Shown here piece after piece: positions 13,910 to 33,979 of a DNA stretch of 64,000 bases. The stretch is from the IMG/VR virus record IMGVR_UViG_3300029957_000008, positions 27,977-91,976 of that record; one strand, 5' to 3'. The stretch comes from a virus. The notes below the pieces were generated by a model. The model ran no database searches and was not told the origin of the DNA. It saw only the letters and a program-made list of their open reading frames with translations. Every line of letters begins with the position of its first letter. Position 1 is the stretch's first letter. A program made the translations under genes and the position numbers.

Positions 13910-14884
13910 ATGCCTACTCTTAGTGTCTTCAAAAAGATCATTGCCTTTGACGATCAAAACCAGACAGCCGCACCCAAACTGGTAGCTGTTAACTGGACTC
14001 GGGATACCATTGTGGGGATTCCGGTAGAGGCTCCTTCAAACGATAGGTTCGTTTTGCCGTCGTTTGCGTCGAAGAACGTTTTCGACGGCACTGTGGCCCT
14101 TGCCTATGACAACACCACTCAGTTTTCTGTTTCTCTGTCAAACCTGTCCCCCAGCCGCTATAGGCTAGCTTGGGTAGGAGGAGCTGACCCACAGTTCCGC
14201 ACAAGTAGGGCCCTGTCGTTGTCGGGTGGAAGCTTGACGGTGGTTATTCAAGGCAATCAGACTGCTACAGTTACCCACAGTGCTGGATCGGTCTTTGGTA
14301 ACATCCAGGTTGGCGACGATGTTTTCATTCCAGGAGCCACAACGGGTGATACCAGCCTCTTTTCTCCAATGAATGAAGGTCACTGGGTCGTTTTGGCCGC
14401 ATCGGCCACTCAACTGACCCTGGTAAGAGAAACTGGCTCGGTTTTCTCCGGTGTCTCTGAAACAGAGGCCGTAACGGCCAATACCCAGTTCCTGGCGTAC
14501 TCGTCTGATGGTGTTCAGATTGACAATGTGGTTGGCTTTGTCTCTGGGTTTGCAATGAGTCTGCTCCACAACTATGAAATTGTAGAGGTGACGTCAAGCT
14601 TTATTGAGTTCCAATCCTCAGCACCCCTTCCTACGACAGTTTCAGTCGTTCCTGGTGCAGGCAGCTTGGTTGTATATGCTTCCGCGAAACAATACGTTTA
14701 CATTGAGTCAGACCAAGAAGTTTCAATCTCCCTGAACGGCCTTAGTTCGGGCGTAATCGTCCCGTTCCAGGCCGGCAACAGGGACTACCCAGGGCTCTAT
14801 GAGATTACAAGTGTTGTCTACTCATTGACCGTTACTAACAACTCGACCCAACAGGCCTCAGTTCGGGTTATTTCGGCAGAGTAA
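13910..14884 (+). CDS. Probable virion structural protein, 324 aa
   Basis: All-beta, Ser/Thr/Val-rich protein between the terminase and portal genes, without a recognised family. A middle region (about residues 120-180: THSAGSVFGN..VGDDVFIPG..NEGHWVVLAAS) resembles a segment of the sheath protein at 53932 (THDTG...IGDTVLLPTG..NEGTYVVTAA), so a common beta domain is shared. The C-terminal 80 residues (YVYIESDQEVSISLNG and on) look like another small beta domain. The role could be head decoration or head fibre. Confidence 0.65.
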   Translation: MPTLSVFKKIIAFDDQNQTAAPKLVAVNWTRDTIVGIPVEAPSNDRFVLPSFASKNVFDGTVALAYDNTTQFSVSLSNLSPSRYRLAWVGGADPQFRTSRALSLSGGSLTVVIQGNQTATVTHSAGSVFGNIQVGDDVFIPGATTGDTSLFSPMNEGHWVVLAASATQLTLVRETGSVFSGVSETEAVTANTQFLAYSSDGVQIDNVVGFVSGFAMSLLHNYEIVEVTSSFIEFQSSAPLPTTVSVVPGAGSLVVYASAKQYVYIESDQEVSISLNGLSSGVIVPFQAGNRDYPGLYEITSVVYSLTVTNNSTQQASVRVISAE

Positions 14885-16885: not shown

Positions 16886-17668
16886 TTGAGATACTTCATA
16901 CCAAAAAGCGGCGTGAAAGCCATTGATGCGGCCATTGAGGCTTTGTTCAACCGAATGAAGCTTAGGTTCCTTGGAAAGAACTTCGAACCTAAGCAGATTC
17001 GTTTCAGCGTGAAACCCGATAAGGCGGTGGACTACAGGGAAGACCTGGCACTGCCTAGCATCTTCGACAAGGCTGCCAGAAGCGAGGGGATGAAGCCTAA
17101 CGAGCCCCTTAAGCAGTCGGTCACAGAAATCATAGAGCAATACCTAGATGCTCATCAAGAGTCCGCTAAGGCCAAGATTCGCTCTACCGTGCAAACATTT
17201 TTGAGCGAGGCGGAGGCCGGTACGGAAGGTGGGGTCGAGAAGGTTCTTAAAGAAGAACTTTCGAACGTCATGGAGAAAGTAACGTCTGGCGTACAAAACG
17301 TGGTGGATAACGAAATGGGAAGAGCAAAGAACTTAAGCACCCTAGATGCAATTACGAAAATCAACGCATTCTCCAACATTTCCGATCCAACGGTGGTGTT
17401 CATTGGCCCGAACGATCAACACACCTGTAAGGACTGCCAGAGATTGTTCTACCTAGAAGACGGGATCACGCCAAGAGCGTGGAAAGTCTCAGAACTCAAG
17501 ATGGGGCTTGGAAAACACGGTGACACTTCTCCTTGTGCGGGCGGTCAGCATCCTCACTGTCGTCATTCATATGGCACAATGATGCCAGGTTTTGGTTTTA
17601 CATCGGGCGGCAAGATAACCTATATCGAGCCGGGGTTTGATATTTGGAAATTCCAGCATGGTGGTTGA
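16886..17668 (+). CDS. MuF-like minor head protein
   Basis: Minor capsid or head-morphogenesis protein of the SPP1 gp7/Mu gpF type. The C-terminal region holds the typical Cys/His pattern: HTCKDCQRLFYLEDGITPR (about 178-196), then a Cys near 213 and HPHCRHSYG (about 222-230). The N-terminal half is helical. The TTG start has GAGGAAG upstream and begins directly after the portal stop. MuF proteins often carry C-terminal toxin domains, but this one ends soon after the core motif. Confidence 0.8.
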   Translation: MRYFIPKSGVKAIDAAIEALFNRMKLRFLGKNFEPKQIRFSVKPDKAVDYREDLALPSIFDKAARSEGMKPNEPLKQSVTEIIEQYLDAHQESAKAKIRSTVQTFLSEAEAGTEGGVEKVLKEELSNVMEKVTSGVQNVVDNEMGRAKNLSTLDAITKINAFSNISDPTVVFIGPNDQHTCKDCQRLFYLEDGITPRAWKVSELKMGLGKHGDTSPCAGGQHPHCRHSYGTMMPGFGFTSGGKITYIEPGFDIWKFQHGG

Positions 17669-18383
17669 CAATTTGAGTGACACGATAGATAAGACAACAG
17701 GGAAAACATGCGGAGGCTGTAACAGGGTTCTTCCTTTAGACTCATTTGGTAAACATTCGGCCGTCAAAAGCGGAAAAAGATCGCGATGTAAAGAATGTCG
17801 CCACGAAGAGGGTGTTAGATATAGAAAACAGAATCCGAATAATGGCCGAAACTACTACAAGAACAACAGAGAGAAACAAAGGGAATACGGTAGGAGATAT
17901 TATCAAGAAAACCGCGACTACCTTAAGAGTAAAACCAAGGCGTATAGACGAGACAATAAGGAAAAGCGAAACGCCAAAGAAAACGAGCGTTTTGCAACGG
18001 ACTTGCAGTACAGGCTGACTAAGAATATCCGAACCCGCCTGCGTAAATGCGTTAAACGTGGTTTTAAGGCTGGATCCTCAAGTGAGATGGGATGTACCGG
18101 CTTGGAATTTAAAGAATACATAGAGTCTCTGTTTTGGCCGAATATGACTTGGGATAATTACGGCAAGGAGTGGGAGCTTGACCACGTAAGTCCTTTATCA
18201 AAATCCGATCTTTGTAGCAGGGACAGCTTCCTTGCAGCAAATCACTTTACGAATGTCCAACCTTTGTGGAAGGACGATAACGAAAACAAGCTAGATCGTT
18301 TGGATTGGAGTCCTACTGAATCGGTCCACGAATTTCCTGAAAGACTGCGATATCTAATTATTCCCCAAGCAGCTAATGGTTGA
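17658..18383 (+). CDS. HNH homing-type endonuclease with zinc ribbon
   Basis: Probable free-standing homing endonuclease. The N-terminus holds a two-part zinc ribbon (CGGCNRVLP then CKECRHEE), followed by a long basic helical linker. The C-terminal HNH motif has WELDHVSPLSKSD (about 176-188), NHFTNVQPLW and DDNENK. It is inserted at the end of the packaging module and overlaps the MuF-like gene by 11 bases. I used the ATG at 17658; the upstream in-frame TTG has no better ribosome site. It converges with the minus-strand gene at 18354 and overlaps it by 30 bases. It is related to the larger HNH protein at 57004. Confidence 0.85.
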   Translation: MVVDNLSDTIDKTTGKTCGGCNRVLPLDSFGKHSAVKSGKRSRCKECRHEEGVRYRKQNPNNGRNYYKNNREKQREYGRRYYQENRDYLKSKTKAYRRDNKEKRNAKENERFATDLQYRLTKNIRTRLRKCVKRGFKAGSSSEMGCTGLEFKEYIESLFWPNMTWDNYGKEWELDHVSPLSKSDLCSRDSFLAANHFTNVQPLWKDDNENKLDRLDWSPTESVHEFPERLRYLIIPQAANG

Positions 18384-18623
18384 GATCCAGGTTACGGGAC
18401 TGCTAAAGAAAGTTTCATACATGTATTCGTCGTCTCTCCAGCGAAGAGTTTCTTTTAGGCTTGACATATCCACGATAGTCCCTGGAGTGAGATCTTCCGC
18501 ACACTCATCAAGTGCCTGCCACAAGCTTTCTGAGTATCCGAGCGGGATCACCCGGTCTTCAATTTGCTTCGTGACTTTGACACCCTCTATGCTGTTTTCG
18601 AACGTGTACTTTTTCATTGTCAT
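18354..18623 (-). CDS. Hypothetical protein, 89 aa
   Basis: No family is recognised; an acidic small protein. Three in-frame ATGs exist. The one at 18621-18623 overlaps the previous stop in an ATGA junction, and AGGATG just before a third ATG at 18617 could serve that start. It converges with and overlaps the HNH gene. Confidence 0.6.
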   Translation of the reverse strand: MTMKKYTFENSIEGVKVTKQIEDRVIPLGYSESLWQALDECAEDLTPGTIVDMSSLKETLRWRDDEYMYETFFSSPVTWISTISCLGNN

Positions 18624-18994
18624 CCTATTTGGATCGAATCCCACCCGGTGTTGGTCGAGTAAAACACTGTGTTAATAATCCCACTGGCCATAATGGCCGC
18701 CAAGCATTTTTCGCAAGGCTTGGAGAGTACAACCTCTCCTCTTGGAGAAACTCTAGCTACGTATAGGTTAACTGGTTTCTTGGTAGAAAGCAAGCGGGAC
18801 TTTGATTGAAGTTGTTTGATCGTTGCAATTTCGGCATGGGTGTTCATGCTGGCGTCAGGAGTGCAACTCTTACTAATGTTGGGTTTCTTAGTAAGAATCC
18901 TACCCCCACATTCCGTAACCGCACCGTGCCTAAAATGGGGGTACTTACTTCCCTTGGCGGTTTTAATGGCATATTGCGCTACCCAAGATTTCAT
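18620..18994 (-). CDS. Cytidine/dCMP deaminase-family enzyme
   Basis: Zinc-dependent deaminase of the CDA/dCMP family, probably feeding dUMP to ThyX. The active-site signature is present: HAE at residues 53-55 (zinc His and catalytic Glu) and PCEKC at 93-97 (two zinc Cys). At 124 residues it is shorter than T4 dCMP deaminase (about 190), so cytidine deaminase or another small deaminase is possible. It has its own promoter at 19002-19030 with the start codon at about +1, so the transcript is probably leaderless. It lies downstream of the dUTPase. Confidence 0.82.
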   Translation of the reverse strand: MKSWVAQYAIKTAKGSKYPHFRHGAVTECGGRILTKKPNISKSCTPDASMNTHAEIATIKQLQSKSRLLSTKKPVNLYVARVSPRGEVVLSKPCEKCLAAIMASGIINTVFYSTNTGWDSIQIG

Positions 18995-19001
18995 TAGTTA
19001 C

Positions 19002-19030
19002 TTTGTATCGTATATTATATGGTCTGTCAA
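19002..19030 (-). promoter_or_regulatory. Sigma70-type promoter of the deaminase gene
   Basis: Minus strand TTGACA (19025-19030), 17 bases, TACAAA (19002-19007). The ATG ends the 7-base discriminator at 18994, so the mRNA should begin at or within a base or two of the start codon. Confidence 0.65.
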
Positions 19031-19038
19031 CAAAAACG

Positions 19039-19506
19039 TTACTTACCAGTACTTCCAAAACCACCAGCACCCCGTTCGGTACTAGAAAGCTCCTCAACTT
19101 CCAAGATTACCGCCTGAACGACTGGAGTAATAACTAGCTGGGCGATTCGTTCACCCGGCTTCAAGTCGATACAATTATTAATCGTGCTGGCCAGGATTAC
19201 CTTGACTTCACCTCGGTAGTCACAGTCAATCGTACCAGGGCTGTTTAGGACCATTACGCCCATACATGCGAAGCTGCTTCTTGGGCGGATTTGGCCCTCG
19301 TAGCCATCAGGGATTTCAATAGCAAGCCCTGTGGACACCAGGTACGGCTCGTCCTTAATAAGATGTAGGGGGGCGTCGCCACAATAAGCCAAGTCCATGC
19401 CGGCCGCACCGGCCGTTTTGTATTGGGGAATAGTAGCGTTAGGGTTTAGCTTCTTAAAACGGATAGCGGGTTGCTGGGGGGATTTGAATTTGAAGGTAGG
19501 TTTCAT
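19039..19506 (-). CDS. dut: dUTPase (trimeric dUTP diphosphatase)
   Basis: Hydrolyses dUTP to dUMP and pyrophosphate, keeping uracil out of DNA and supplying ThyX. All five motifs are visible: AGMDL (35-39), RPRSS (74-78), GTIDCDYRGE (91-100), GERIAQLV (about 118-125) and the C-terminal P-loop-like GAGGFGSTG (146-154). Length 155 is typical. AGGAAA precedes the ATG, and it follows the hidden frameshifted gene by 12 bases in the same operon. Confidence 0.95.
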   Translation of the reverse strand: MKPTFKFKSPQQPAIRFKKLNPNATIPQYKTAGAAGMDLAYCGDAPLHLIKDEPYLVSTGLAIEIPDGYEGQIRPRSSFACMGVMVLNSPGTIDCDYRGEVKVILASTINNCIDLKPGERIAQLVITPVVQAVILEVEELSSTERGAGGFGSTGK

Positions 19507-19518
19507 TTGTTTCCTGTA

Positions 19519-19819
19519 TTAAACGATAATAAACATCTTGACGATTAAATCTCGTTCTCCTCCTAGGGAGACATTTATTGTGTGTGGGGGAAGGTTTCCA
19601 TCCAATAGAGCCCATACACGGAGATTTCTGATATTCCTGAGTGCCGTAAACTCATTGTAGTCTTGACTTCCTTTGGATGAGAGATATTTGGTCCGTGGAG
19701 GGTCTTTTCTTAGGAGATCTCGGAGCTTTGATCTGATCAGATGCTCTGCTGCACGGAAAACTTCTTGGGTGGCCCAGTTTCCGGGAAGCGTCTAGATCGA
19801 GCCACTCTTTTTCTGTCAT
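19519..19819 (-). CDS. Hypothetical protein of about 100 aa requiring a +1 frameshift
   Basis: An open frame of 90 codons (19519-19791) has strongly protein-like sequence (LPGNWATQEVFRAAEHLIRS, then VWALLDGNLPPHTINVSLGG and onward) but no usable start codon after its upstream stop at 19792-19794. The ATG at 19817-19819 in the neighbouring frame, with AGGCGAG upstream, encodes MTEKEWLDLDA and reaches the same point. A +1 shift near 19785-19791 (GACGCTTCCC) would join both into one protein. Without the shift, the ATG frame ends at 19652. The stop falls 12 bases before the dUTPase start, which fits an operon. Either programmed frameshifting or a sequence error explains it. Confidence 0.6.
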
Positions 19820-20192
19820 TTTGTCTCGCCTGAAGGGGTTTATCGTAGCATTTGGAGTTTGGACAGGTTGTTGGTGCACCACCGGAGGGGCCACACCATT
19901 GATATCCACACATAGGGCAGTATAAAGCGCTAGTGACGTTTCTTTTGCCTAGCAGTATCTGGTCGCATGTTAGTTCTGGGCCGCTTCGGTCTTCTCGGTA
20001 CGGAAGGGCGCCTTTCCAATTTTGTGGCAAAGCTTCTATACAGGGAACGATTTCTGCAGTTTTGAGCTTTGCCCGACAAAGTTCCTCTTCTCCTAGCCAT
20101 TTTGCTGCAAACTCAATGTCTTTGAGATCTTTGTTGGTCATGTCGATATCAAGCATGACTTCCATGTCAAGATGGCACAGTACGAGGGTCAC
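19737..20192 (-). CDS. Hypothetical zinc-ribbon protein, 151 aa
   Basis: No family is recognised. A C-terminal zinc ribbon is visible: CPMCGYQWC (about 93-101) and CPNSKC (about 110-115). The last 30 residues are basic and may reflect overlap with the next gene. The GTG start at 20190-20192 is supported by GGAGG and abuts the previous stop. A frameshift into the next frame near its end cannot be excluded. Confidence 0.65.
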   Translation of the reverse strand: MTLVLCHLDMEVMLDIDMTNKDLKDIEFAAKWLGEEELCRAKLKTAEIVPCIEALPQNWKGALPYREDRSGPELTCDQILLGKRNVTSALYCPMCGYQWCGPSGGAPTTCPNSKCYDKPLQARQNDRKRVARSRRFPETGPPKKFSVQQSI

Positions 20193-20402
20193 TTATTCCT
20201 CCGGACAAGCCAAGGCTGTGACGGTCTTGATTATGGTTACTCTCCAGAGTTTTTCTCCCGGATATACACAACCTGGGCGCTGGCGATCCCCGATAGCGTC
20301 CTCTTTTGTATCCCACGGATCATATTCTCCAGAGTGAGTAGCGTTGATTAGGGCTTCCTCTTCGTTTTTAGCATACACCCAAACTTTTACGGTTTTGGTC
20401 AC
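20193..20402 (-). CDS. Hypothetical protein, 69 aa
   Basis: Small protein with a beta-rich start (VTKTVKVWVYAKNEEEALIN) and a WRVTIIKTV end. I start it at the GTG that overlaps the previous stop (GTGA), with GGAG upstream. A longer TTG-started form from 20450 would overlap the previous gene by 51 bases. No family is recognised. Confidence 0.6.
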   Translation of the reverse strand: MTKTVKVWVYAKNEEEALINATHSGEYDPWDTKEDAIGDRQRPGCVYPGEKLWRVTIIKTVTALACPEE

Positions 20403-20569
20403 TTCTTCGTCTCCGTCTTGTATTGGACTTGCCACTTTTGTATGCAGCAATAATCGTCATTTATTTCAATTCGTCGTGCTTCTGCAGCATCTTCAGTGGC
20501 CCAGATACTGTCTAGCATATCGCCTTCGTGCATCTCCTCAAAGACGACTACATACACATACCTGTTCAT
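20399..20569 (-). CDS. Hypothetical protein, 56 aa
   Basis: Starts MNRYVYVVVFEEMHEGD and contains a helix ATEDAAEARRIEI; its pattern is similar to the next gene (VWVYAKNEEEALIN), so the two may be distant copies. ATGA overlap with the upstream gene and GTGA overlap with the downstream gene. It is shorter than 60 residues but well supported by coupling. Confidence 0.65.
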   Translation of the reverse strand: MNRYVYVVVFEEMHEGDMLDSIWATEDAAEARRIEINDDYCCIQKWQVQYKTETKK

Positions 20570-20742
20570 TCCACACTCGCCAAATCCAAAGCTTCCTGAA
20601 TTGCAGCCGCTTCTGATGGGTCTAGTTCACAGTTGTCTAAAAGGTATTCTAGGTATTCCGGCTCTTCCTCAAGTACATCCTCAAGATTTTCAAATTTAAA
20701 TCGGCCCTTAGTAAATTGGTTATGTTGGTTCAAAAAACTCAT
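20566..20742 (-). CDS. Hypothetical acidic protein, 58 aa
   Basis: Starts MSFLNQHNQFTKGRFKFEN and is strongly acidic with a helical C-terminus. AAAGGAG lies eight bases before the ATG. ATGA overlaps couple it to the HAD gene upstream and the 56-residue gene downstream. No family is recognised. Confidence 0.68.
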   Translation of the reverse strand: MSFLNQHNQFTKGRFKFENLEDVLEEEPEYLEYLLDNCELDPSEAAAIQEALDLASVE

Positions 20743-21191
20743 ACTTCTACTCCTTTGTTAATAACTTCAATAGCTCGTTCTACGTGTTCGTCTAAAAGTC
20801 CAAGATCCCAAGTAGTTTCAACTAGATGCGGCCACAAATGGACCATGTCTTCGCAATCGTCCAGGATTACAAACCTGTCGTGGCCGGGGTTCTCGTCCAA
20901 CCACTTCTGGATTTCATAACCTCTAGGACCGCCAAGGCGTGGAGTCTTGTCAATAATAGTAACTTTGCCGCCAGCATCGTTAATAACGTTTTCAATGAAG
21001 TCCAAGTGGAGCATGATTCGCCAGGTAGACGAAATAACAACATCAGCCCCGGTGGCTTCTACGATCTTATTCAGTCGCTCCACCGCTTTGCGATCCACTT
21101 CGTTCATTGTCCACTGGTCGCCAAGAAGATCTACAAACTCTTGGCTGTTCAGAACGCCATCAATGTCTAGGAAGATAATTGGCTTGGTCAT
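20739..21191 (-). CDS. HAD-superfamily phosphatase-like protein
   Basis: Haloacid dehalogenase-fold hydrolase. Motif I FLDIDGVLNS has the nucleophile Asp9 and Asp11; motif II is VISSTWR (about 52-58); motif III/IV region has the Lys of DKTPRLGG (about 101-108) and the acidic VILDDCEDM (about 128-136). The compact 150-residue form with STWR resembles HAD domains linked to nucleic-acid end repair. The substrate is unknown; a nucleotide or polynucleotide 3'-phosphate would fit the neighbours. It overlaps the previous stop by one base (TAATG). Confidence 0.82.
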   Translation of the reverse strand: MTKPIIFLDIDGVLNSQEFVDLLGDQWTMNEVDRKAVERLNKIVEATGADVVISSTWRIMLHLDFIENVINDAGGKVTIIDKTPRLGGPRGYEIQKWLDENPGHDRFVILDDCEDMVHLWPHLVETTWDLGLLDEHVERAIEVINKGVEV

Positions 21192-21382
21192 TAAAAAACT
21201 CTATTGAGGGAGTCGAGAAACACTTGCCGGGGCCAAGGGACACTCAGTCTGTGGTGCCACTGGTGCTGTTCACAGGCGTCTTTGATGCCGGCAACGGTTT
21301 TATCTATTTGGTCGTAATCAATAACTGTGGTAGCTACTAGTTCGTTTTTTGCGTCATAAACGGTAAGAATGGTTGGTGTCAA
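21191..21382 (-). CDS. Hypothetical protein, 63 aa
   Basis: A small beta/alpha protein. The TTG start is decided by AGGAGG eight bases upstream; no ATG is available nearby. The stop overlaps the HAD start. No family is recognised. Confidence 0.6.
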   Translation of the reverse strand: MTPTILTVYDAKNELVATTVIDYDQIDKTVAGIKDACEQHQWHHRLSVPWPRQVFLDSLNRVF

Positions 21383-21437
21383 TGAGCGGTACCTCCTGAA
21401 TGTTTGTAATTATCTGTGTTTGTTCTAAGAAAGTCAA

Positions 21438-22010
21438 TTATTTTCTGCAACCAAATTCAGAATCCTGAGTTACTAATGTTTTTAGGTATCGGAATCGTTT
21501 GGTGACAGTGTAGGTGTATCTAGAGATCGTGGGATCGTTAATCCAGTTTCCATACCCCTTGTTGTAAATGGTCAAAGCCTTCAGTAGGTTGCGCTGTTCT
21601 CCTATTAGTTCGGCCAGGTAGGCTATTCCTAGGTAGATGTTGTTCCTAATGTCGTAAAACGGATCCCCCACGATCTTGAACTTCTCCACCAAGTACTTGC
21701 TGGTCCGTTTGGATAGCTGAATCAGTCCCCGACAGCCTTTCTTAGACTTTGCTCTCTTATCGTACCGGCTTTCGACTTCTATAAGGGCTACAACAAATAC
21801 CGGGCTAAGCCCGAACTCCCTACCTACTTCAGTTGCAGCTATTGCCATCTCCTTGGCGTCTGAGGAGTCTAGCTTGGTCTGCAGGACGTAGGAGCGTTTA
21901 GCTATTAGCTCCTGAAGAGGCACCACATCGGCGGATTCCGGTGCTAAGCACCTATTACCGCCGTTCATGCCATTTAGAAACATTAGAAGAGTTAGTATCT
22001 GTAGGTTCAT
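21438..22010 (-). CDS. Lytic transglycosylase (SLT-type lysozyme-like)
   Basis: Cleaves peptidoglycan. The SLT fold is indicated by ALIEVESRY (catalytic Glu about residue 80), GCRGLIQLS (about 92-100, equivalent to GAMGLMQL), NNIYLGIAYL, and ALTIYNKGYGN. The N-terminus (MNLQILTLLMFLNGMNG) is a short signal-peptide-like hydrophobic stretch, so it may be exported. It is in a minus-strand cluster with nucleotide enzymes, not with the tail genes, so it could act in lysis or in host wall remodelling rather than in the virion. Confidence 0.85.
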   Translation of the reverse strand: MNLQILTLLMFLNGMNGGNRCLAPESADVVPLQELIAKRSYVLQTKLDSSDAKEMAIAATEVGREFGLSPVFVVALIEVESRYDKRAKSKKGCRGLIQLSKRTSKYLVEKFKIVGDPFYDIRNNIYLGIAYLAELIGEQRNLLKALTIYNKGYGNWINDPTISRYTYTVTKRFRYLKTLVTQDSEFGCRK

Positions 22011-22205: not shown

Positions 22206-24389
22206 ATGCTGTGCCCCAACATTAAAGATTCCAAGGGAATGCTCATCGATGGAGTTTTTTCATCGGAGGCCATCGACTCTTCAGGAGAAGTTGTAAAACT
22301 TGAAGGTATTGATATCTCCTCTATGGAAGAGGGGCACGGGGTTGCCAATTACGAGCACAAGGGAATAGACGCTGGAGGCTTTGGCCGGGAGATCGTAGGA
22401 AGGATCATCTACGTCCACAAGGTTTTTAAGGCTTCGGACTGCGAAGATGACCGCCAAAGGATGTTTTGGAAGAAAGTCAAGGAGCAGCCCTTTCTCTACG
22501 GTATGGTCCGGCTTTACGATGCTGCGGGCCACACCGGAGCAGAGGCCCTAGCGGCCCAAATCCGGGATGCTGTCTACCACGATGATGAAATTACGGTTAG
22601 GTACTCCGTAGAGGGTACAACCCTTGAGCGGGATGGAAACATCATTAAGACCTCCATCGCTAGGAAGGTTGCTCTAATCATTGGCCCCTGCAATAAGACC
22701 TGTCTATCCGGTGTGGTTAAAGACACCAACGCCCCTAAGGGATACCAAAAAGAGGACATCGAGAAGTCTGAATTATTGTCCGATCCTTCAAGCCGAAGCA
22801 TCGGTGACGCCCCAGAGTACCAGTACAACCCAATCGTGTCGGATTTTACCAAGAACCCGCTTATTGATCTGGTCCAGAGCTTAGAGCTACTAAAGAGCAT
22901 GACGGCGGGTGGTGGAGACGCAGCCCCTTCTACTCTTACTGGCGGCCAAGCTCTACAAAGGGAAGAGCTAGGTGGCGTCTACAAGAACCACATCGTTGAC
23001 GCCATCAAGGACTACAAAGACCCTTGGGACCACGGTAAGTTTCGAAAGTTTCTAAAAGCTCGGTTGGACAAAGCTGACCTTCCTGAGGTTTCTGACTCGT
23101 TCTTGGACTACTTCATGGGGATCGCCAAGGACTACCAGATTAAGAAGCATCAGGACATTAACCAGGAGTACATTACTAATACTTCGCTGGTTGGCCAAGT
23201 CCATCAGTTAGAAGGATATCTGGTTGAGCTGAGGAAGTCCATCAGAGACGAGCTAGAGGGGTACCAAGTTAGCCTTCCTGAGGTTTACGCCGTCAAGATG
23301 AAGGTGGGTAATGATTACCTACCCGCTGGTCGGTTCATGGTGGTTCAAAACGCAGTCCACCACCTAGAAGACTACCATGGGATCCTAGCAGCTATGATTC
23401 CCGAAGGGCCTTTGGGTGTAGACGGCCAGACTGGAATAGAAGCCCTCAAGATGGTCCCCGAGTTCTCGGTTACCGAGCATCAGATTCCTGAGCCGGTAGC
23501 CAATACAGTACCTGGTATTGTTGGGGTGGTTTCCAACAAGCTTCAAGCCCCACAAAGGGCCGCTGTTTTTGAATATATTCGGCCCGGTATGGGGCAGTCC
23601 CATATTGTTGAGTTTAGTGAGCATGGCGCAGCCCTGGATGGTGAAAAGCTGACAGATGATGAGCTGAATCTCATTGTCTCCAATGTTGAAAGCGGTTTGG
23701 CTACTCTCAAGTGGAAGCAGAATAGCAACCAGGACTTGAGTAAGTCTGACATGGGCGTGCATGAGGCTATGGCTGGTTTAAGAGCGGCCGTATCGGCCGG
23801 ACATGTGCATCCTGATGTCGAAAGGGCGTTTACCAAGCACGTCTTTGAGGACCACATGGTTCCTGGGGTGGGTAATAAGTTCGCTTGGAATGAATTTCAA
23901 CGACAGAACAAGCCAGGAGTACTTGGGTCTATTGATCTTAACTCTTTTAAGCACATTAACGATACTCGCGGCCATATTGCCGGCGATAGCGCGATCAAGG
24001 CCGTTGGTGGGGCACTGAAGAGTGCTGCTGAGAAGGTTGGGACAGTAAAGCTGTTTAGGACTGGTGGAGACGAGTTTGCCATTCACAGCCCTACTCAAGA
24101 AGATGCTCATAGGTTTATGAGAGAAGCAAGGTCTCACATGGCTCAAATACCGCCAGTTGGCGGGGTACATAAGCCATCGTTCAGTATCGGCTTGGGCCAG
24201 GACTTTGGGACGGCAGACAAGGCTTTGTATCTAGCCAAGAAGCAAAAGGTCGATCCTGTGACGGGTAAGAACGCCTATCACCCTGCCAGAACTCCTCACT
24301 TGGGGCACTCTTTGCTGCCAGGATCGGAAGGGCCGATCAATATGTCTGAAGCACCTACGGCTTCGACTGGGTCAAAGGTAGCGGCGTAG
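22206..24389 (+). CDS. Head-maturation protease-like protein fused to a GGDEF domain
   Basis: 727 residues in at least three parts. The N-terminal 170 residues (SSEAIDSSGEVV, NYEHKG, FLYGMVRLYD, ITVRYSVEG) resemble XkdF/S78-type phage prohead proteases, with candidate catalytic His and Ser. Residues about 217-255 (NPLIDLVQSLELL..DAAPSTLTGGQALQREEL) match the start of the major capsid protein. The C-terminal 130 residues form a GGDEF nucleotidyl-cyclase domain: SIDLNSFKHINDTRGHIAGD near 573, FRTGGDEF near 617 and FSIGLGQDF near 660. The metal Asp and intact GGDEF suggest activity; no RxxD inhibitory site is seen. It sits just before the scaffold and capsid genes. The protease call is moderate, the GGDEF call strong. 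Confidence 0.8.
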   Translation: MLCPNIKDSKGMLIDGVFSSEAIDSSGEVVKLEGIDISSMEEGHGVANYEHKGIDAGGFGREIVGRIIYVHKVFKASDCEDDRQRMFWKKVKEQPFLYGMVRLYDAAGHTGAEALAAQIRDAVYHDDEITVRYSVEGTTLERDGNIIKTSIARKVALIIGPCNKTCLSGVVKDTNAPKGYQKEDIEKSELLSDPSSRSIGDAPEYQYNPIVSDFTKNPLIDLVQSLELLKSMTAGGGDAAPSTLTGGQALQREELGGVYKNHIVDAIKDYKDPWDHGKFRKFLKARLDKADLPEVSDSFLDYFMGIAKDYQIKKHQDINQEYITNTSLVGQVHQLEGYLVELRKSIRDELEGYQVSLPEVYAVKMKVGNDYLPAGRFMVVQNAVHHLEDYHGILAAMIPEGPLGVDGQTGIEALKMVPEFSVTEHQIPEPVANTVPGIVGVVSNKLQAPQRAAVFEYIRPGMGQSHIVEFSEHGAALDGEKLTDDELNLIVSNVESGLATLKWKQNSNQDLSKSDMGVHEAMAGLRAAVSAGHVHPDVERAFTKHVFEDHMVPGVGNKFAWNEFQRQNKPGVLGSIDLNSFKHINDTRGHIAGDSAIKAVGGALKSAAEKVGTVKLFRTGGDEFAIHSPTQEDAHRFMREARSHMAQIPPVGGVHKPSFSIGLGQDFGTADKALYLAKKQKVDPVTGKNAYHPARTPHLGHSLLPGSEGPINMSEAPTASTGSKVAA

Positions 24390-24765
24390 TCTTTCGGCAG
24401 CTTTTGCAGGTTCGTTCGCGTTGAGTGAACGATAAGAACATTGGCAGGACCTTGTTGCAGGCGTAGCACTCTCTGAGGCCGCTGTCCGCATTGCATTTGC
24501 TGCATAGGCCGTTGCTGTTCAGTTTTCGGTGTTTGAGGCAGCAGGCGCAGACTGTATCTGGCCACTTTTTGACCATTATGTCCTCTTTCCTGCAGGATTT
24601 ACACTTTGAAGTGACGGGTCTAGCTGTGCCCTCCCGGATGAACTCATGGAAGGCCCTCCTGGGAAGGGCTTTCTTGCATCCAGAGCATCTGTAGGTCTCG
24701 TCAGCGGTCACTATTGGTAAGATTAGTGTTTTATACATTTTTTGTAGCTCACTAATGTCAATCAT
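24355..24765 (-). CDS. Multi-CxxC zinc-ribbon protein
   Basis: 136 residues with five Cys pairs: CSGC, CKSC, CACC, CSKC (then CYAC) and a final CKSC. The knuckles YRCSGCKKALPRRAF and RECYACNKVLPMFL resemble the ribbons at the front of the HNH proteins at 17658 and 57004, but no HNH motif follows. It may be a DNA-binding remnant or regulator derived from such an endonuclease. It is on the opposite strand to the capsid operon and overlaps the GGDEF gene end by 35 bases. No ribosome site is clear at the ATG, and a second ATG lies nine codons downstream. Confidence 0.65.
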   Translation of the reverse strand: MIDISELQKMYKTLILPIVTADETYRCSGCKKALPRRAFHEFIREGTARPVTSKCKSCRKEDIMVKKWPDTVCACCLKHRKLNSNGLCSKCNADSGLRECYACNKVLPMFLSFTQRERTCKSCRKTTPLPLTQSKP

Positions 24766-24803: not shown

Positions 24804-25283
24804 ATGGCTACATCGCGAAAAGCACAAGATATTGCACGAGACCTACTCGATACTTTCGGTAAGCAGGTCGCGGCTACTCTGCCCGTTCAAGTTCAGACGG
24901 CAGACAGTTCGGGCAACCCCATTCTAACCCTTTCGGCAGACTCCACCCCGGCGACTGGTGAAAAGGTCGTTGTCATTGTTGTCTCGCCTTATGCGAGCGG
25001 CACGGCGTACGACATCTTTGGTAATGCGGCTCTCAATTACTCGCCCACCAAGATTCAGTTCTGCACTGAAGCGAACTACGCGGCTACCACGGACAACGTT
25101 GCTGACATCCTTACTCCTACCGAGCTTCTCCCCATTATCTCGGAGATTTCGAAGAGGGGTACTCTTGTTGAGTGGCACGTGACCGCGAACGGCACCGTTC
25201 CTTCGGCCGCCGCCATCGCAGCGGGTACTGTTCTCAGCGCAACGTTTGCTCCGCTATACAACGGCGTTCAATCTGCGATCTAA
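24804..25283 (+). CDS. Probable capsid-associated structural protein, 159 aa
   Basis: Ala/Thr/Val-rich beta protein starting MATSRKAQDIARDLLDTFGK, located between the protease and scaffold genes. Size and location fit a head decoration protein, but no family is recognised. AAGGAG lies seven bases before the ATG. Confidence 0.7.
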   Translation: MATSRKAQDIARDLLDTFGKQVAATLPVQVQTADSSGNPILTLSADSTPATGEKVVVIVVSPYASGTAYDIFGNAALNYSPTKIQFCTEANYAATTDNVADILTPTELLPIISEISKRGTLVEWHVTANGTVPSAAAIAAGTVLSATFAPLYNGVQSAI

Positions 25284-25310: not shown

Positions 25311-26243
25311 ATGGACATGAAAAATCTAACAAAGAAAGGTCTGGAGAAACTCATTGATGATGTTTCTTTGGGTCTTACGGCCGTCTTGGCAAAAGCCGAG
25401 GCGGAAGGCGCTGTTGAAGGACAGACGCTAGCGAAAGCAGACCCAGGGCAGGAAGCTCCTGCGGAAAAGGTCCCTGCTGGTTCGTCTAGCGAAAGTTCCG
25501 ATTCCAGCCCCGCCAAAGAGGAATCTAGTCCTGCAGCCCCGGCCGCAGATGCTAGTCCTGCTGAGGAAACTCCTGGTGAAGTACCTGTTGCAGAAGGGGC
25601 GCCTGCTCCTAGTGCCGAAGGTTCGGAACCAGCAGAAGACACGGGTGGTACGGTTGAGCAGCTTCAGGCTGAATACGCCGCACTTCCTGTCGAGGAACAG
25701 AAGATGCACTTGCTAGCTCTCAAAGCTGCTTTGATGTCGACGTTGGCATCTCAGGGTGGCGAAGGCGATGCCGGTGTTGCTCCTGAAGGTATGCCTGCTC
25801 CAGACGCTTCTGCGGCTCCCGCCGCTCCCGAAGCTGCTGCCCCAGCGCCTGCCCCAGAGCAAACAGAAATGCCTCCGATGGCTAAGTCCGAAGACCGAGC
25901 ACTTGCTCTAGAACTTGAGACCCTTAAGAAGGCCTTGAGTGACAAGGAAGAGATTATTGCAAGCACCAATCAAATGGCGGCTGCTTTCAAGAACTTCCTT
26001 GAGCGAAACAACGGTCGTCGGCTTTCAGTCGCTGCGGCTTCGGTTATGCCGAAGACTCAGACCGACCTAGCCAAGTCAGAAGGTATTGACGTCACCTCTC
26101 TTTCCCCAGTGGAAATCAACCGGAAGCTCACAGAGGTAGCGGCTTCGGGAACCCTCAAGAAATCAGATAAAGACCTCGTCCTTAAGTATGTAGCTGGCAG
26201 GGACAAAAAAGATGTCGGCTCAATCGCACATCTTTTAAAGTAA
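25311..26243 (+). CDS. Candidate scaffold protein
   Basis: 310 residues. The N-terminus is helical; residues 40-200 are low-complexity Ala/Pro/Glu/Ser; the C-terminal 110 residues are helical and basic (LETLKKALSDKEEIIASTNQ and onward). Such composition directly before the major capsid gene is typical of scaffold or core proteins that are degraded by the prohead protease. AAGGAG precedes the ATG. The function is inferred from position and composition. Confidence 0.65.
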   Translation: MDMKNLTKKGLEKLIDDVSLGLTAVLAKAEAEGAVEGQTLAKADPGQEAPAEKVPAGSSSESSDSSPAKEESSPAAPAADASPAEETPGEVPVAEGAPAPSAEGSEPAEDTGGTVEQLQAEYAALPVEEQKMHLLALKAALMSTLASQGGEGDAGVAPEGMPAPDASAAPAAPEAAAPAPAPEQTEMPPMAKSEDRALALELETLKKALSDKEEIIASTNQMAAAFKNFLERNNGRRLSVAAASVMPKTQTDLAKSEGIDVTSLSPVEINRKLTEVAASGTLKKSDKDLVLKYVAGRDKKDVGSIAHLLK

Positions 26244-26259: not shown

Positions 26260-27675
26260 ATGAATCCATTGTCGCAAATTCAAGACCTCGTAAAGGCACT
26301 AGAGGCCGGCAACTATGATGCCGCCCCCAGCACACTAGAGCAAGGCTCTGCCCTGCAGATTGAAGACCTCAATCCTGTCATGGTCATGGTCACAGCAGAA
26401 GAAAAACACATTAAGCTCCAGAAGCTGATTCCTGTTGAGTCGTCTAAGTCGACGACTTTTCAGTTCAACCGTCAGCTCTCGGTTGGTATCATGGGTGGCA
26501 GCGCTCAGATGGAAGGTAACGTTGGTCAAGAGGAAACTTCTGACTACGTACGTATCACCATCCCAATGACGTACTACTCGCACATTCGTCGGGTGACTGT
26601 TGCTTCGACCTTGGTTGCCAGCTCTGATGGTAAGAAGTCAGATGAACGGGCGGCTCAGGATGCGGCTAAGAAAGTCTCCTTTGACGTTGAGTTCGACCTC
26701 TTCCGTGGTCTTGAGTGTTTCAGCAACGCCGGTACTTTCGACGGCAACCCGCTGACCACCTCGAACCTTCTCCCCAACATGCATGGCCTTTCGCTCCAGG
26801 TTCGTCAGTCGGACTTCCAGGTGAACAGCCGTGATGCAATGTTCGCCGAGTTCGGTTCGGATCAGACGGTTGTTCTTTCAGCCGGTGGTTCGACTCTAAC
26901 CCAGGGTATCATTGAAGACGGCGCTCTCCGTAGCTCTTTGGGCTTCGGCGAAGCGGACAAGCTCATTGTGGATCCCGTGGTTCTCGCTAACTACAACAAG
27001 ATCACGTTCGGCAAAGAGCGTATCATCCTCGCGGGTAGCCCGCAAGATGCGACTGCCGGTGACCTTCGTCGTCAGTGGGTCTCGGGCGGCACTGTGAACA
27101 TTGAAGCTTCGCAGTTCCTCCGTGGCAAGTTCAAGCCCGCTCCTGTGCGTGCGAACAGCCCCGTGGCTCCTGCTAGCATCACTGTGACCCCGGCTTCGGC
27201 CACCAACCCGACCGGCCTCGCCGCTGGTGTTTATTACTACTTCGCTACCGCTGGTAACGAAGTTGGTGAGTCGGTTGCTTGTACGGCAGTGTCTTCGGGC
27301 AGCGTGACGAAGGACTACAAGGTTACGGTTGTGGTTACCCAGCCCGCGTCTGGCGTCTACCGCTTCTACAACATCTACCGTTCGCCTGTCGGCGGTACGG
27401 CAGCTCAGGCCAAGTTCATTGGTCGCGTTGTTCCGACCCAGGGCTCGTCCACGACTAACTTCGTTGACCTCAACGGCATGAATCCTGCAGCGGTTACTGG
27501 TTACTTCCTTCAGAAGGACGGAGCCAGCATTCGTGAACTGGCTTCTTACAGCCGCCTCAAGCTGGCCGTCTCGGACCTCAGCATGCCGGAAGCTCACTTC
27601 CGCTTCCTGGGCCTAGCGGTTGAGACTCCTCGCAAGTTCGTCCTCATCGACAACTTGAATGGTACCATCAGCTAA
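26260..27675 (+). CDS. Major capsid protein with inserted beta domain
   Basis: 471 residues. Evidence is position after the scaffold, typical MCP-like segments (TTFQFNRQLSVG, RVTVASTLVAS, VEFDLFRGLECFS, DKLIVDPVVLANYNK), strong AAGGAG and more biased codon use than its neighbours. Residues about 300-410 form an inserted Ig/FN3-like domain (ASITVTPASATNPTGLAAG, YRFYNIYRSPVGG). The first 38 residues (NPLSQIQDLVKAL..DAAPSTLEQGSALQIEDL) match an internal segment of the protease-GGDEF protein and may be a cleaved propeptide. A terminator follows. Confidence 0.82.
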   Translation: MNPLSQIQDLVKALEAGNYDAAPSTLEQGSALQIEDLNPVMVMVTAEEKHIKLQKLIPVESSKSTTFQFNRQLSVGIMGGSAQMEGNVGQEETSDYVRITIPMTYYSHIRRVTVASTLVASSDGKKSDERAAQDAAKKVSFDVEFDLFRGLECFSNAGTFDGNPLTTSNLLPNMHGLSLQVRQSDFQVNSRDAMFAEFGSDQTVVLSAGGSTLTQGIIEDGALRSSLGFGEADKLIVDPVVLANYNKITFGKERIILAGSPQDATAGDLRRQWVSGGTVNIEASQFLRGKFKPAPVRANSPVAPASITVTPASATNPTGLAAGVYYYFATAGNEVGESVACTAVSSGSVTKDYKVTVVVTQPASGVYRFYNIYRSPVGGTAAQAKFIGRVVPTQGSSTTNFVDLNGMNPAAVTGYFLQKDGASIRELASYSRLKLAVSDLSMPEAHFRFLGLAVETPRKFVLIDNLNGTIS

Positions 27676-30199: not shown

Positions 30200-33100
30200 A
30201 TGGATCAAGACACCAAACCCAAGGAGTTTTCTGTCGTCATCATTTCTGATGGCCAAGGGAAAGTTCTGTTTGGCAAGCGAAACGACAATAAGAAGTGGAC
30301 GTTGGCTGCAGGCGGCCTTAATCCGGGCGAAACGCCCGAAGAAGGAGCCTTAAGAGAAATGTTCGAGGAGACAGGGTTAAGACCGAAGAAGCTGTCCTTT
30401 GTAACGACAAAAAAGACTCCCAACAATACAGTCCACTTCTTCTCATGTCAATGCCCCGGTGAGCCTACTACCGAAAACGATCCCGACAAGGAATGCTCCA
30501 AGCTTCAATGGGTTGATGTTCGTGGTGGAGTCCCTTCCAACATATGGAACAACCTCCATGGTCCAAAGGGCGATGAAAACATCGTAAGACAAGTCTACGA
30601 CCTCAAGAAGTCGGAGCAAGTTTGGCTAGAGGATTGTGGATTCCTAGACCTATCTAAGTCAGAAAACGAGTCAGAGGTTTCGACACTTCTAAGGCACCCA
30701 AATCCCTCTGAACGATCTCTAGCCCTTAAGCTCAACACCGTCACACCTCACGATCTAGCCGTGGCTATCCTAGATCCAGATCCTAAGGTCTGGGGAACGG
30801 CGTTTGACCACAAAGATGCTACCCACGCTCACACAATTCTCTCTTCTAATACTAGGGATGCTGCGGGAAACCCTCTTTGGGAACGACACAACCTGCTACT
30901 AAAAGACCCCAGGTTCAATAAAGAGCATCTTACGCTCATGGCTCATGCCGTCCGCAAAGACTCCTCGTTATCCCCTAAAGACCAAGCTGACAGACTTAAG
31001 GTCTTGGCCCTCAATGGGTACTCGGATCTCAAGAAGTCTTCTGCGTGGGCACATCATCTGTTATACGCAGGTTCCACCCAAGGACAAGATCTTGCCGACT
31101 CAAGTGCCGAACCTGTTCACGAGACCCTAAAGCCTCTCAAACACGAGTATGAATCGGCTCTATCGTCTGAGGACGCTATTGAGCCGCACAACGCTGGTTT
31201 GCATGACATTGGCCAGGTGTCTCATAAGGTGGTCTACAAGGTTGGATCTAACAAGCTCATGGTGAAGCCCTATGCCGAAGAAGAACAGCCTTTGTCTGGT
31301 TGGTCTGAAGGGGCTTCTCAAGCTATCTACCATGCCGCCGGTTTGGGACACCTACATCAAAGGTCCTTTGTGTCCCATCACGGCGGTGGGAAGTACAACA
31401 TTCCGGCTACTGTGATTCATTTGGATGCTGAGGCAACGCCTATCCATAAGGCTCCCTTAGGGACAGTCAGGGAGCAGAATCCGGCTTTGGATGACGAAGC
31501 CAGGAAGATGTCTGTGATGGACTTCCTTACGGCGAACCACGACCGGCACACCAACAACCTCATGGTCCAAAAGAACGGCCATTTGTTGGCCGTGGATAAC
31601 GCCAGTGCGTTTGGAAGCCACCCGTACACATTTCCTTACTACACCAATAAGGGTGTAAGCGTAGTTCTTGGAAAAAATCATGACATGCTGCCTGAAGGGA
31701 AGCAGGCCTATACACGGCTATTAGCCGATTGGTGGCCTGGGATTAGTACGGATGTGAAGTCTGAGCTGAATAAGCGGGTCGCCCAGATTAAGCACCCGGC
31801 TCACAGTCGGAGAATCAAGGAGGCCTTTGACCAAAGGGCTGCTTGGCTAGACCGAAAGTCTCAGGAAGCCAAAGCTGGAAATGTTAGTGGGTTTGATGAC
31901 TTTGCTCCTGCTCCGTTAGAGAAAAGGATGGAGGAAGCCGAGTTTCTTGGCGATCACCCTAAGATGAAAATCGAAGGGTTGCACGAGAATCTTTTGGACA
32001 AGCACCCGGCGTCAATGAACGCCGACGTAGAGCACTTTGAGAAGAACGTCAATACCTCTAAGCACAATGTACGCCCTTTGAAGGAGAAGCTCAAGGGGGC
32101 CGACATGAAGGCTGTTTACGGCCATGCGGATAAGAAGTACTTGGTTAAGCCGTCTGTTTTCAATAATGAAGAGCTGACCCACCTCAATACGCCACTTTCT
32201 GCCTGGTCAGAGCTTACACACCAGGCGATGTACCACGCTGGTGGTATCGGACACCTACACCAGAAGGTTCATGCCACTGTTGCCAAGAATGTGTTTCCTG
32301 ATGCTCATGGGCTCGTAGTCCACATGGAGCCAGGAGCCAAGGAAGTCCGGGAGCTTAATGATAAGGAGAAGACTGCGCTAACCAACCATCCTGACTTCAA
32401 GAAGATCCCCTTTATGGACTTTGTGACTTTTAACAAGGACCGTCACGAAGGAAATCTGATGGTTAAGCCTGACGGTACTCCGCTTGCGATTGACCACAGT
32501 CTTGTTTTTGGGAAAGACGCCGACTCCAAGTTCTCCTTAGAGAACCAAGATCTGCATTATGAAGAGCCGGGGTATGGATTCAGAACGCCTATGCAGACTG
32601 CGTCCAAACCGGATGCTAGCACTTGGGCTTGGTGGGACGCAAACAAAGACAAGATCAAAGAGTCTTTCCACAAGCACGCGGACCTTATTCCTCACAAAGA
32701 GACCCGGAACAGACTAAAAGACTCGTTCAACTACAGAATGGACATGCTGGAAGATGGCGCTACGCCCATGGGCCAGCCAATTAGGGAAGGCCTACATAAG
32801 ACACTTGAAGGTGCTGACTTCCTTCATAAACAGCACGATCAGCCGTCTTTAATCAAGCCCATCAACGTTGCTGGCGTCCATGACAAGCTCAAGGTCTCTA
32901 CTCCTGACGCCATAAAGATTCACAGGCAGAAGTTTGAGCTTGGGTTAAATCAGCACCCAACTGTGGCTAAGCCTGTAATGAGCTACGATCCTTCGGTCAA
33001 GCGAACACTTGCAGGTGAAGAACCTAAGGCTATCTACAAGATGGGCAATGACCACGTAATGGTTAAACCCCAGGCCGCTCCAACATCAAGGCTTTCGGCC

Positions 33101-33979
33101 TGGAACGAAATGACTTCCCAGGCGATGTACCACGCTGGAGGTATTGGGCATCTACACCAGAAGGTTCACGCAACAACTTTGGCCAATCAGGGGGGTAAGA
33201 CTGTTCTTGGCAAGGACCCCCACGCAATCGTGGTGCACATGGCGCCTAACGTCCGACCCGTTTCGGAGGCATTGAAGGACGATCAAGATACCAGCTTAGA
33301 CAGCATGGCCAGCAATCCAGAACACCTACAGTCTCTCAAGAAAATCGGGGTTATGGACTGGTTGACATCGAATCCTGATAGGCATGAGGGGAATATTATG
33401 ATTGCTCCCGATGGGTCTCCCTTGGCTATCGATCACGGTCGAGCTTTTTCAAGCGATAGAGTTCACGCTTTTGGTGGTGAGTATGATCGTGATTTGGAGG
33501 CTCAAGGTCGAATTGCTTTGGCCGGACACCTCAATCACCCCGACATGCCTAAGGCGACCAGTCAAATTATGGAAAGTGTTGGGAAGCAAAAGGCTTGGGA
33601 CGAAGCTGTGAACAAAGACCCTCACAAGCAGTTGGATGGGTTTGACAATTTTAGTGGGTATGGTGGTGGAGACTTTTTCTCCGACGCCACCAAAATGGGC
33701 GGATCCCCAGATGAGGAAACCTGGAACTGGTTTGACGCAAACAAAGATAAAATGCATGAGGCTTTTAGGAAGCACGCTAACATGCTCCCCGACCAAGACG
33801 CCCGAAACAAAATGATGGGGTCGTTTAATGTCAGGATGGAACACCTAAAGCAAGTTCGAGAGAATAGCCGAGGTAAGGATCCTAACAAGTTAGATGTTCA
33901 AAACCACTCACCCGTAGCTTATCGGCCTACGGCCCCAAGCATGGTTGAATCTCATCCAACGGAAAGAAGGGTAGCCTAA
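30200..33979 (+). CDS. Nudix hydrolase domain fused to three PI3/4-kinase-like domains
   Basis: 1259 residues. Residues 1-140 are a Nudix domain with a complete GX5EX7REUXEEXGU box at about 38-60. After a helical linker come three tandem kinase-fold repeats. Each has a Lys-containing strand (LMVKPY near 344, YLVKPS near 646, VMVKPQ near 951), a conserved AIYHAAGLGHLHQ or AMYHAGGIGHLHQ helix, a catalytic DRHxxN motif (NHDRHTNN near 446, NKDRHEGN near 745, NPDRHEGN near 1056) and a metal-binding AVDN or AIDH motif. This is the pattern of phosphatidylinositol 3/4-kinase and HipA-like kinases. It starts directly after the previous stop among virion genes, so it may be carried in the particle and act on the host. 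Confidence 0.8.
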   Translation: MDQDTKPKEFSVVIISDGQGKVLFGKRNDNKKWTLAAGGLNPGETPEEGALREMFEETGLRPKKLSFVTTKKTPNNTVHFFSCQCPGEPTTENDPDKECSKLQWVDVRGGVPSNIWNNLHGPKGDENIVRQVYDLKKSEQVWLEDCGFLDLSKSENESEVSTLLRHPNPSERSLALKLNTVTPHDLAVAILDPDPKVWGTAFDHKDATHAHTILSSNTRDAAGNPLWERHNLLLKDPRFNKEHLTLMAHAVRKDSSLSPKDQADRLKVLALNGYSDLKKSSAWAHHLLYAGSTQGQDLADSSAEPVHETLKPLKHEYESALSSEDAIEPHNAGLHDIGQVSHKVVYKVGSNKLMVKPYAEEEQPLSGWSEGASQAIYHAAGLGHLHQRSFVSHHGGGKYNIPATVIHLDAEATPIHKAPLGTVREQNPALDDEARKMSVMDFLTANHDRHTNNLMVQKNGHLLAVDNASAFGSHPYTFPYYTNKGVSVVLGKNHDMLPEGKQAYTRLLADWWPGISTDVKSELNKRVAQIKHPAHSRRIKEAFDQRAAWLDRKSQEAKAGNVSGFDDFAPAPLEKRMEEAEFLGDHPKMKIEGLHENLLDKHPASMNADVEHFEKNVNTSKHNVRPLKEKLKGADMKAVYGHADKKYLVKPSVFNNEELTHLNTPLSAWSELTHQAMYHAGGIGHLHQKVHATVAKNVFPDAHGLVVHMEPGAKEVRELNDKEKTALTNHPDFKKIPFMDFVTFNKDRHEGNLMVKPDGTPLAIDHSLVFGKDADSKFSLENQDLHYEEPGYGFRTPMQTASKPDASTWAWWDANKDKIKESFHKHADLIPHKETRNRLKDSFNYRMDMLEDGATPMGQPIREGLHKTLEGADFLHKQHDQPSLIKPINVAGVHDKLKVSTPDAIKIHRQKFELGLNQHPTVAKPVMSYDPSVKRTLAGEEPKAIYKMGNDHVMVKPQAAPTSRLSAWNEMTSQAMYHAGGIGHLHQKVHATTLANQGGKTVLGKDPHAIVVHMAPNVRPVSEALKDDQDTSLDSMASNPEHLQSLKKIGVMDWLTSNPDRHEGNIMIAPDGSPLAIDHGRAFSSDRVHAFGGEYDRDLEAQGRIALAGHLNHPDMPKATSQIMESVGKQKAWDEAVNKDPHKQLDGFDNFSGYGGGDFFSDATKMGGSPDEETWNWFDANKDKMHEAFRKHANMLPDQDARNKMMGSFNVRMEHLKQVRENSRGKDPNKLDVQNHSPVAYRPTAPSMVESHPTERRVA

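Follow-up and report, generated by a model that had tools for sequence, protein, structure and literature searches.

A GGDEF domain fused to a head-maturation protease in Mx1-like phages, a candidate cargo of the virion

The window, a stretch of 64,000 nucleotides of viral DNA, carries on its plus strand an unbroken reading frame of 727 amino acids (22206-24389) that joins a head-maturation protease, a segment resembling the N-terminus of the major capsid protein (MCP), a middle domain and a GGDEF domain. The protease domain (residues 1-180; 22206-22745) was assigned with PHROG 1028 and shares 37% identity with the prohead protease of Myxococcus phage Mx1. The MCP-like segment (residues 222-258; 22869-22979) is 54% identical to MCP residues 4-40, encoded at 26269-26379 (+), and is followed by a helical region (residues 259-330; 22980-23195), seen in the alignment with the distant head proteases L092 and L093 and as helices in the structural model. 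Between the segment and the GGDEF domain lies a conserved middle domain of about 145 residues (361-503; 23286-23714), which has its own gene of 150 codons in Mx1 and matches no known family in the libraries searched. The GGDEF domain, with a conserved N-terminal extension and a C-terminal HSLxPGxEG tail (residues 519-704; 23760-24317), contains the codon of the metal-binding Asp577 (23934-23936) and those of the GGDEF loop, residues 620-624 (24063-24077). A protease-like N-terminus and a capsid-protein-like segment had both been named in the original prediction and are recovered here, the former through a weak profile match; the middle domain was absent from that description.

The same prediction had placed the gene ahead of scaffold and capsid genes, which agrees with the gene order as far as the MCP. 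Downstream lie a small head gene (24804-25283, +), which takes the position of Mx1 WNM70325 and has no family match, an acidic, low-complexity ORF (25311-26243, +), scaffold-like by position and composition only, and the MCP gene (26260-27675, +), which matches the phrog_752 major head protein at 5e-39. Within this run, a minus-strand ORF rich in CxxC motifs (24355-24765), zinc-ribbon-like and with no family match, overlaps the end of the fusion gene. On the other side, an Endonuclease VII/HNH-like gene (17637-18383), probably a mobile endonuclease, overlaps the end of the head gene that follows the portal, and a minus-strand block between portal and protease (18620-22010), where Mx1 has minus-strand genes too, encodes a deoxycytidylate deaminase, a dUTPase, a HAD_SAK_2 phosphatase and an SLT transglycosylase. 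Beyond the MCP, a protein of 1259 amino acids (30200-33979) combines a NUDIX domain with three PI3/4-kinase/Fam20C-like domains; in Mx1 and many relatives, similar kinase-like domains are attached C-terminally to the protease. A scan for promoters and terminators gave nothing above chance.

The evidence for the protease comes from its profile, its conserved residues and its place between the portal and the scaffold and MCP genes. The PHROG 1028 family 'head maturation protease' is matched weakly by the window protein (2.2e-5) and by 16 of 24 relatives, the best at 4e-8. His51 and Ser134 are invariant across 24 sequences and, by analogy, are the putative catalytic pair. The peptidase S78 family, for which a profile search had been proposed, gave no Pfam match to the protease N-terminus. 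A profile search of the PDB with the protease yielded nothing useful, and Foldseek placed the Kaposi herpesvirus protease at rank 2 for its model, but with E=0.58.

The C-terminal domain is a canonical GGDEF domain in sequence, with a high-confidence predicted fold. Residues 560-679 match Pfam PF00990 with E=1.3e-15 and 57.9 bits (cut-off 23.8), so that the profile search suggested beforehand does find the family, and NCBIfam TIGR00254 is likewise exceeded, with 47.2 against a cut-off of 37.4. In an AlphaFold model of residues 351-727, computed from alignments from which the Mx1 rows had been left out, pLDDT is about 95-98 across the GGDEF domain, and Foldseek relates the model to solved diguanylate cyclases, down to E=1.6e-8 and with TM values of 0.57-0.67 for many targets. 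A structure prediction lacking the GGDEF fold had been named as evidence against the original prediction; the fold is present, at a pLDDT of ~97. All signature residues are found in the window copy, namely D577 (in SIDLNSFK), N585, D594, R618, the loop residues 620-624 and K678, the loop reading R618-T-G-G-D-E-F624. The predicted intact GGDEF domain, with its FRTGGDEF motif and its metal Asp, is thus corroborated by both profile libraries, by the model and by the residues themselves. Upstream of the loop, the window copy has no RxxD inhibition site.

Of 31 distinct GGDEF copies, 30 keep the metal Asp, 30 the Arg, 30 the Lys and 27 the catalytic Glu; RxGGDE is intact in each of the nine one-ORF fusions. 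Judged by these residues, the window domain would be an active cyclase making c-di-GMP or a related cyclic dinucleotide. Four copies have a catalytically dead look (L060 and L067 with GDK, L021 with GDC, L033 with FKGNDF and a deletion), and eight have Asn at residue 594, the position which we take to be that of the Asp contacting guanine in PleD; product specificity may therefore vary. Between close relatives the GGDEF domain has a dN/dS of 0.04-0.08, synonymous sites being saturated for most distant pairs, and it is evolving under purifying selection. The pair L015/L029 shows a higher value, 0.55, which the simple method used leaves unexplained.

The closest isolated counterpart is Mx1, a lytic myovirus of 169.6 kb (PMC10720576, PMC6070905). 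In its genome (OR576727.2) the prohead protease WNM70322, the 150-residue WNM70323 and the 'nucleotide cyclase' WNM70324 are consecutive, and small head genes and the MCP follow. Residues 1-330 of the window protein are 37% identical to the first of these, residues 374-501 30% to the second and residues 509-703 38% to the third, while the MCPs share 53%. Module order and MCP type are thus the same, and the Mx1 GGDEF domain is intact as well (RNGGDEF); in contrast to the window, the modules are three separate genes in Mx1, and its protease has a kinase-like C-terminal region that the window protease lacks.

How widespread is this arrangement? Alignments of MCP, protease and GGDEF, used to search IMG/VR, gave about 88 loci, whose module layout was read with profiles built from these same loci. 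A scan of the viral contigs with the single protein P0001 found no match; alignments that included the Mx1 proteins did. About 30 relatives encode the modules on one to three ORFs, which run protease, middle, GGDEF and then MCP. Three genes are found in Mx1, L020, L027, L033, L054, L060, L067 and L076; a protease followed by a middle-GGDEF ORF in L006, L011, L012, L014, L016-L018, L024, L051, L055 and L066, with L021 as a variant; and a single ORF in the window, L007, L008, L009, L015, L029, L031, L040 and L057. One such protein from an uncultured phage is in BFVD, under the bare name 'GGDEF domain'. The profile of the middle and GGDEF domains found no relative in cellular genomes, and that of the MCP found one contig, in a Saccharibacteria MAG; as this looks like binned phage, it was rejected as a lead to the host, and we name none.

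On the MCP tree the one-ORF state corresponds to three changes, of which well-supported branches force at least two; one supported pair joins L057, which is fused, with L051, which is not. The GGDEF tree repeats the main clades, which implies that the domain was mostly inherited together with the head. When the wider family is included, one clade has GGDEF in 28 of its 30 readable members, L078 and L036 having lost it, and the sister clade, where the protease gene lies on the opposite strand, has it in none. When whole records were searched with PF00990, each of the 11 near-complete records of the GGDEF clade proved to carry a single GGDEF domain, located at the head locus; ten of these domains exceed the Pfam cut-off and one (G017, locus L061) falls just short of it. 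No GGDEF domain was found in nine further records, comprising seven of the sister clade, L078 as a loss and the unplaced L035.

The MCP-like segment has a wider distribution than the cyclase. Its consensus, LxKAxEAGxxxAAPSTLxxGxALQxED, is matched by 73 of 74 MCPs and 62 of 73 proteases (redundant loci counted) and by no other ORF of at least 80 amino acids in those loci. It occurs also in the proteases of phages without GGDEF and is missing from the stand-alone cyclases, so we rejected it as a marker of cyclase cargo. Almost every protease and MCP in the family has it, which makes it part of the head machinery rather than of the cyclase. The capsid-like segment of the original prediction is real; these proteases have it generally, with or without a GGDEF domain. 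Even the far relatives L092 and L093 carry it, though their MCPs are only about 25% identical, and its spacing from the protease domain differs greatly across these two and the other relatives. The copies in MCP and protease of the same phage are more similar than random pairs (0.523 versus 0.475, reached by 0 of 10,000 permutations), a comparison that still includes phylogeny. Where the protease form usually reads GG, the MCP form reads QG; both share a near-invariant Glu close to the segment's end. Some changes are seen jointly in the two copies, such as L/Y and A/L switches.

The segment may serve as a docking peptide, taking the protease to the partner of the MCP N-arm, or as a cleavage site common to both proteins, with the Glu at P1. 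In L107, an Mx1-like phage contig binned as Saccharibacteria, an ORF of 122 amino acids (about 14243-14608, +) opens with a further copy of the MCP N-terminus, after which the sequence is unrelated; the ALQxE part is missing from this copy, which favours docking a little. A copy of the capsid N-terminus inside a protease gives an entry point for studying the recruitment or processing of such proteases.

What could a cyclase be doing behind a head protease? Its fixed, single occurrence between protease and capsid gene, with the fusion to the protease in this virus, suggests that the enzyme may be packaged and carried into the host. Tailed phages normally enclose their head protease in the procapsid, and we infer that an enzyme fused behind the protease and the MCP-like segment should be enclosed as well; that the same partners have been fused and separated repeatedly argues for a shared destination. 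In the mechanism we propose, the protease with its MCP-like segment would enter the procapsid and bring the middle-GGDEF part along, and processing by the protease would free this cargo inside the head. As useful GTP is not expected there, the cyclase would most likely matter after ejection, like T4 Alt: it would enter the host with the DNA and, at an early stage of infection, could convert host GTP into c-di-GMP or a related cyclic dinucleotide, and so shift the physiology of the host or disturb a nucleotide-based defence. In phages with separate genes, the middle and GGDEF proteins would be packaged as partners of the protease. We assign a probability of roughly 0.47 to the window protein being a head-assembly polyprotein, a maturation protease whose cargo terminates in a catalytically competent GGDEF-type enzyme, taken jointly with packaging and delivery. 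Somewhat more tentatively, the Mx1-like clade as a whole may hitch a cyclase to the protease in the capsid and thereby cause a second-messenger burst in the new host before viral genes are expressed.

Several observations weigh against the cargo. In most relatives the GGDEF domain is not covalently joined to the protease and has no MCP-like segment; other phages usually lose their head protease by exit or self-degradation, so that a fused cargo need not remain; and the four dead-looking copies, together with Asn594 in eight, indicate that activity or product may differ within the family. Degenerate copies retained in place would suit a role of the GGDEF and middle domains in head assembly itself, for example as a GTP- or c-di-GMP-binding regulator or a structural partner of the protease, with catalysis secondary or lost in part of the family, and so would the strict linkage to protease and MCP and the repeated fusion to the former. 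We consider such a role unlikely, as heads of the sister clade form with a related protease and MCP although no GGDEF is present anywhere in the genome, which means that assembly as such can do without the domain; the losses in L078 and L036 and the retention of the catalytic Glu in 27 of 31 copies also speak against it.

Alternatively, the enzyme might be a diguanylate cyclase expressed late and active in the cytoplasm of the cell that produces the phage, where it could affect, for example, lysis, motility or superinfection; operon structure alone would then link it to the head genes. Free GGDEF genes away from the head genes, as in YuA-like Pseudomonas and Bordetella phages and in Bacillus phage SP-15, are a precedent for this. 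However, the clade genomes have GGDEF nowhere else, and covalent fusion to the protease, seen in nine phages, brings no obvious gain to a cytoplasmic enzyme, which makes this reading rather improbable. That the fusion is a functionless accident or an assembly artefact is most improbable; its sole basis is the origin of the window in a metagenomic contig of 91,976 bases, and it is already refuted by the relatives: the fusion occurs in nine distinct contigs, close fused pairs share 57-69% identity in the GGDEF domain, their synonymous sites being mostly saturated, the conservation is phylogenetically coherent, and the isolated reference phage Mx1 has the same modules.

The idea of a cyclase as cargo, put forward as new in the original prediction, is not entirely so, as GGDEF domains were described in 2017 in the injected 'polyvalent proteins' of phages, with a proposed role in signalling against host responses (Iyer et al., PMC5512222). 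Like these, the window protein is a late multidomain phage protein with unrelated enzyme activities, here protease and GGDEF, and the injection predicted for them is what we propose for it. In polyvalent proteins, however, the assemblin-like peptidase is reported always to be C-terminal, whereas here the peptidase is N-terminal and is the head-maturation protease itself, adjoining the MCP. Packaged enzymes injected by phages are known, for example T4 Alt (PMC5512222); this is an ADP-ribosyltransferase, of another enzyme class, and its packaging and injection are established, while for the window protein packaging is a proposal. With the cellular PF00990 enzymes PleD, WspR and DosC, the domain shares the fold, the metal Asp, the GG[D/E]EF loop, the guanine-binding residues and the Lys; unlike them it lacks an RxxD I-site and a sensory domain, and has an N-terminal extension and HSLxPGxEG tail of its own. 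The small GGDEF proteins of YuA-like phages and SP-15 are also phage-encoded, but stand alone. Searching the literature turned up no virion reported to contain GGDEF, and neither virion proteomics nor an enzyme assay. Three features appear to be new: a cyclase conserved by vertical descent within the head module of a phage clade, its direct joining to the head-maturation protease, and the accompanying middle domain.

It is known that phages break down cyclic nucleotides of the host; a synthase carried into the cell would make second-messenger signalling a virion-borne weapon. As Mx1 is an isolated laboratory phage of Myxococcus xanthus, a direct test is possible. The repeated fusion of cargo to the maturation protease suggests a general route for loading enzymes into heads. 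Further domains are found in or next to these modules in single relatives: the protease ORF of L021 (8004-12290) has an intein-splicing match (Pfam PF14890, residues 672-1080), that of L051 (999-5708) contains ParB_N and DUF6321, and in L020 (12558-13784) a DUF3293/SAM-lyase-like region lies behind the GGDEF domain.
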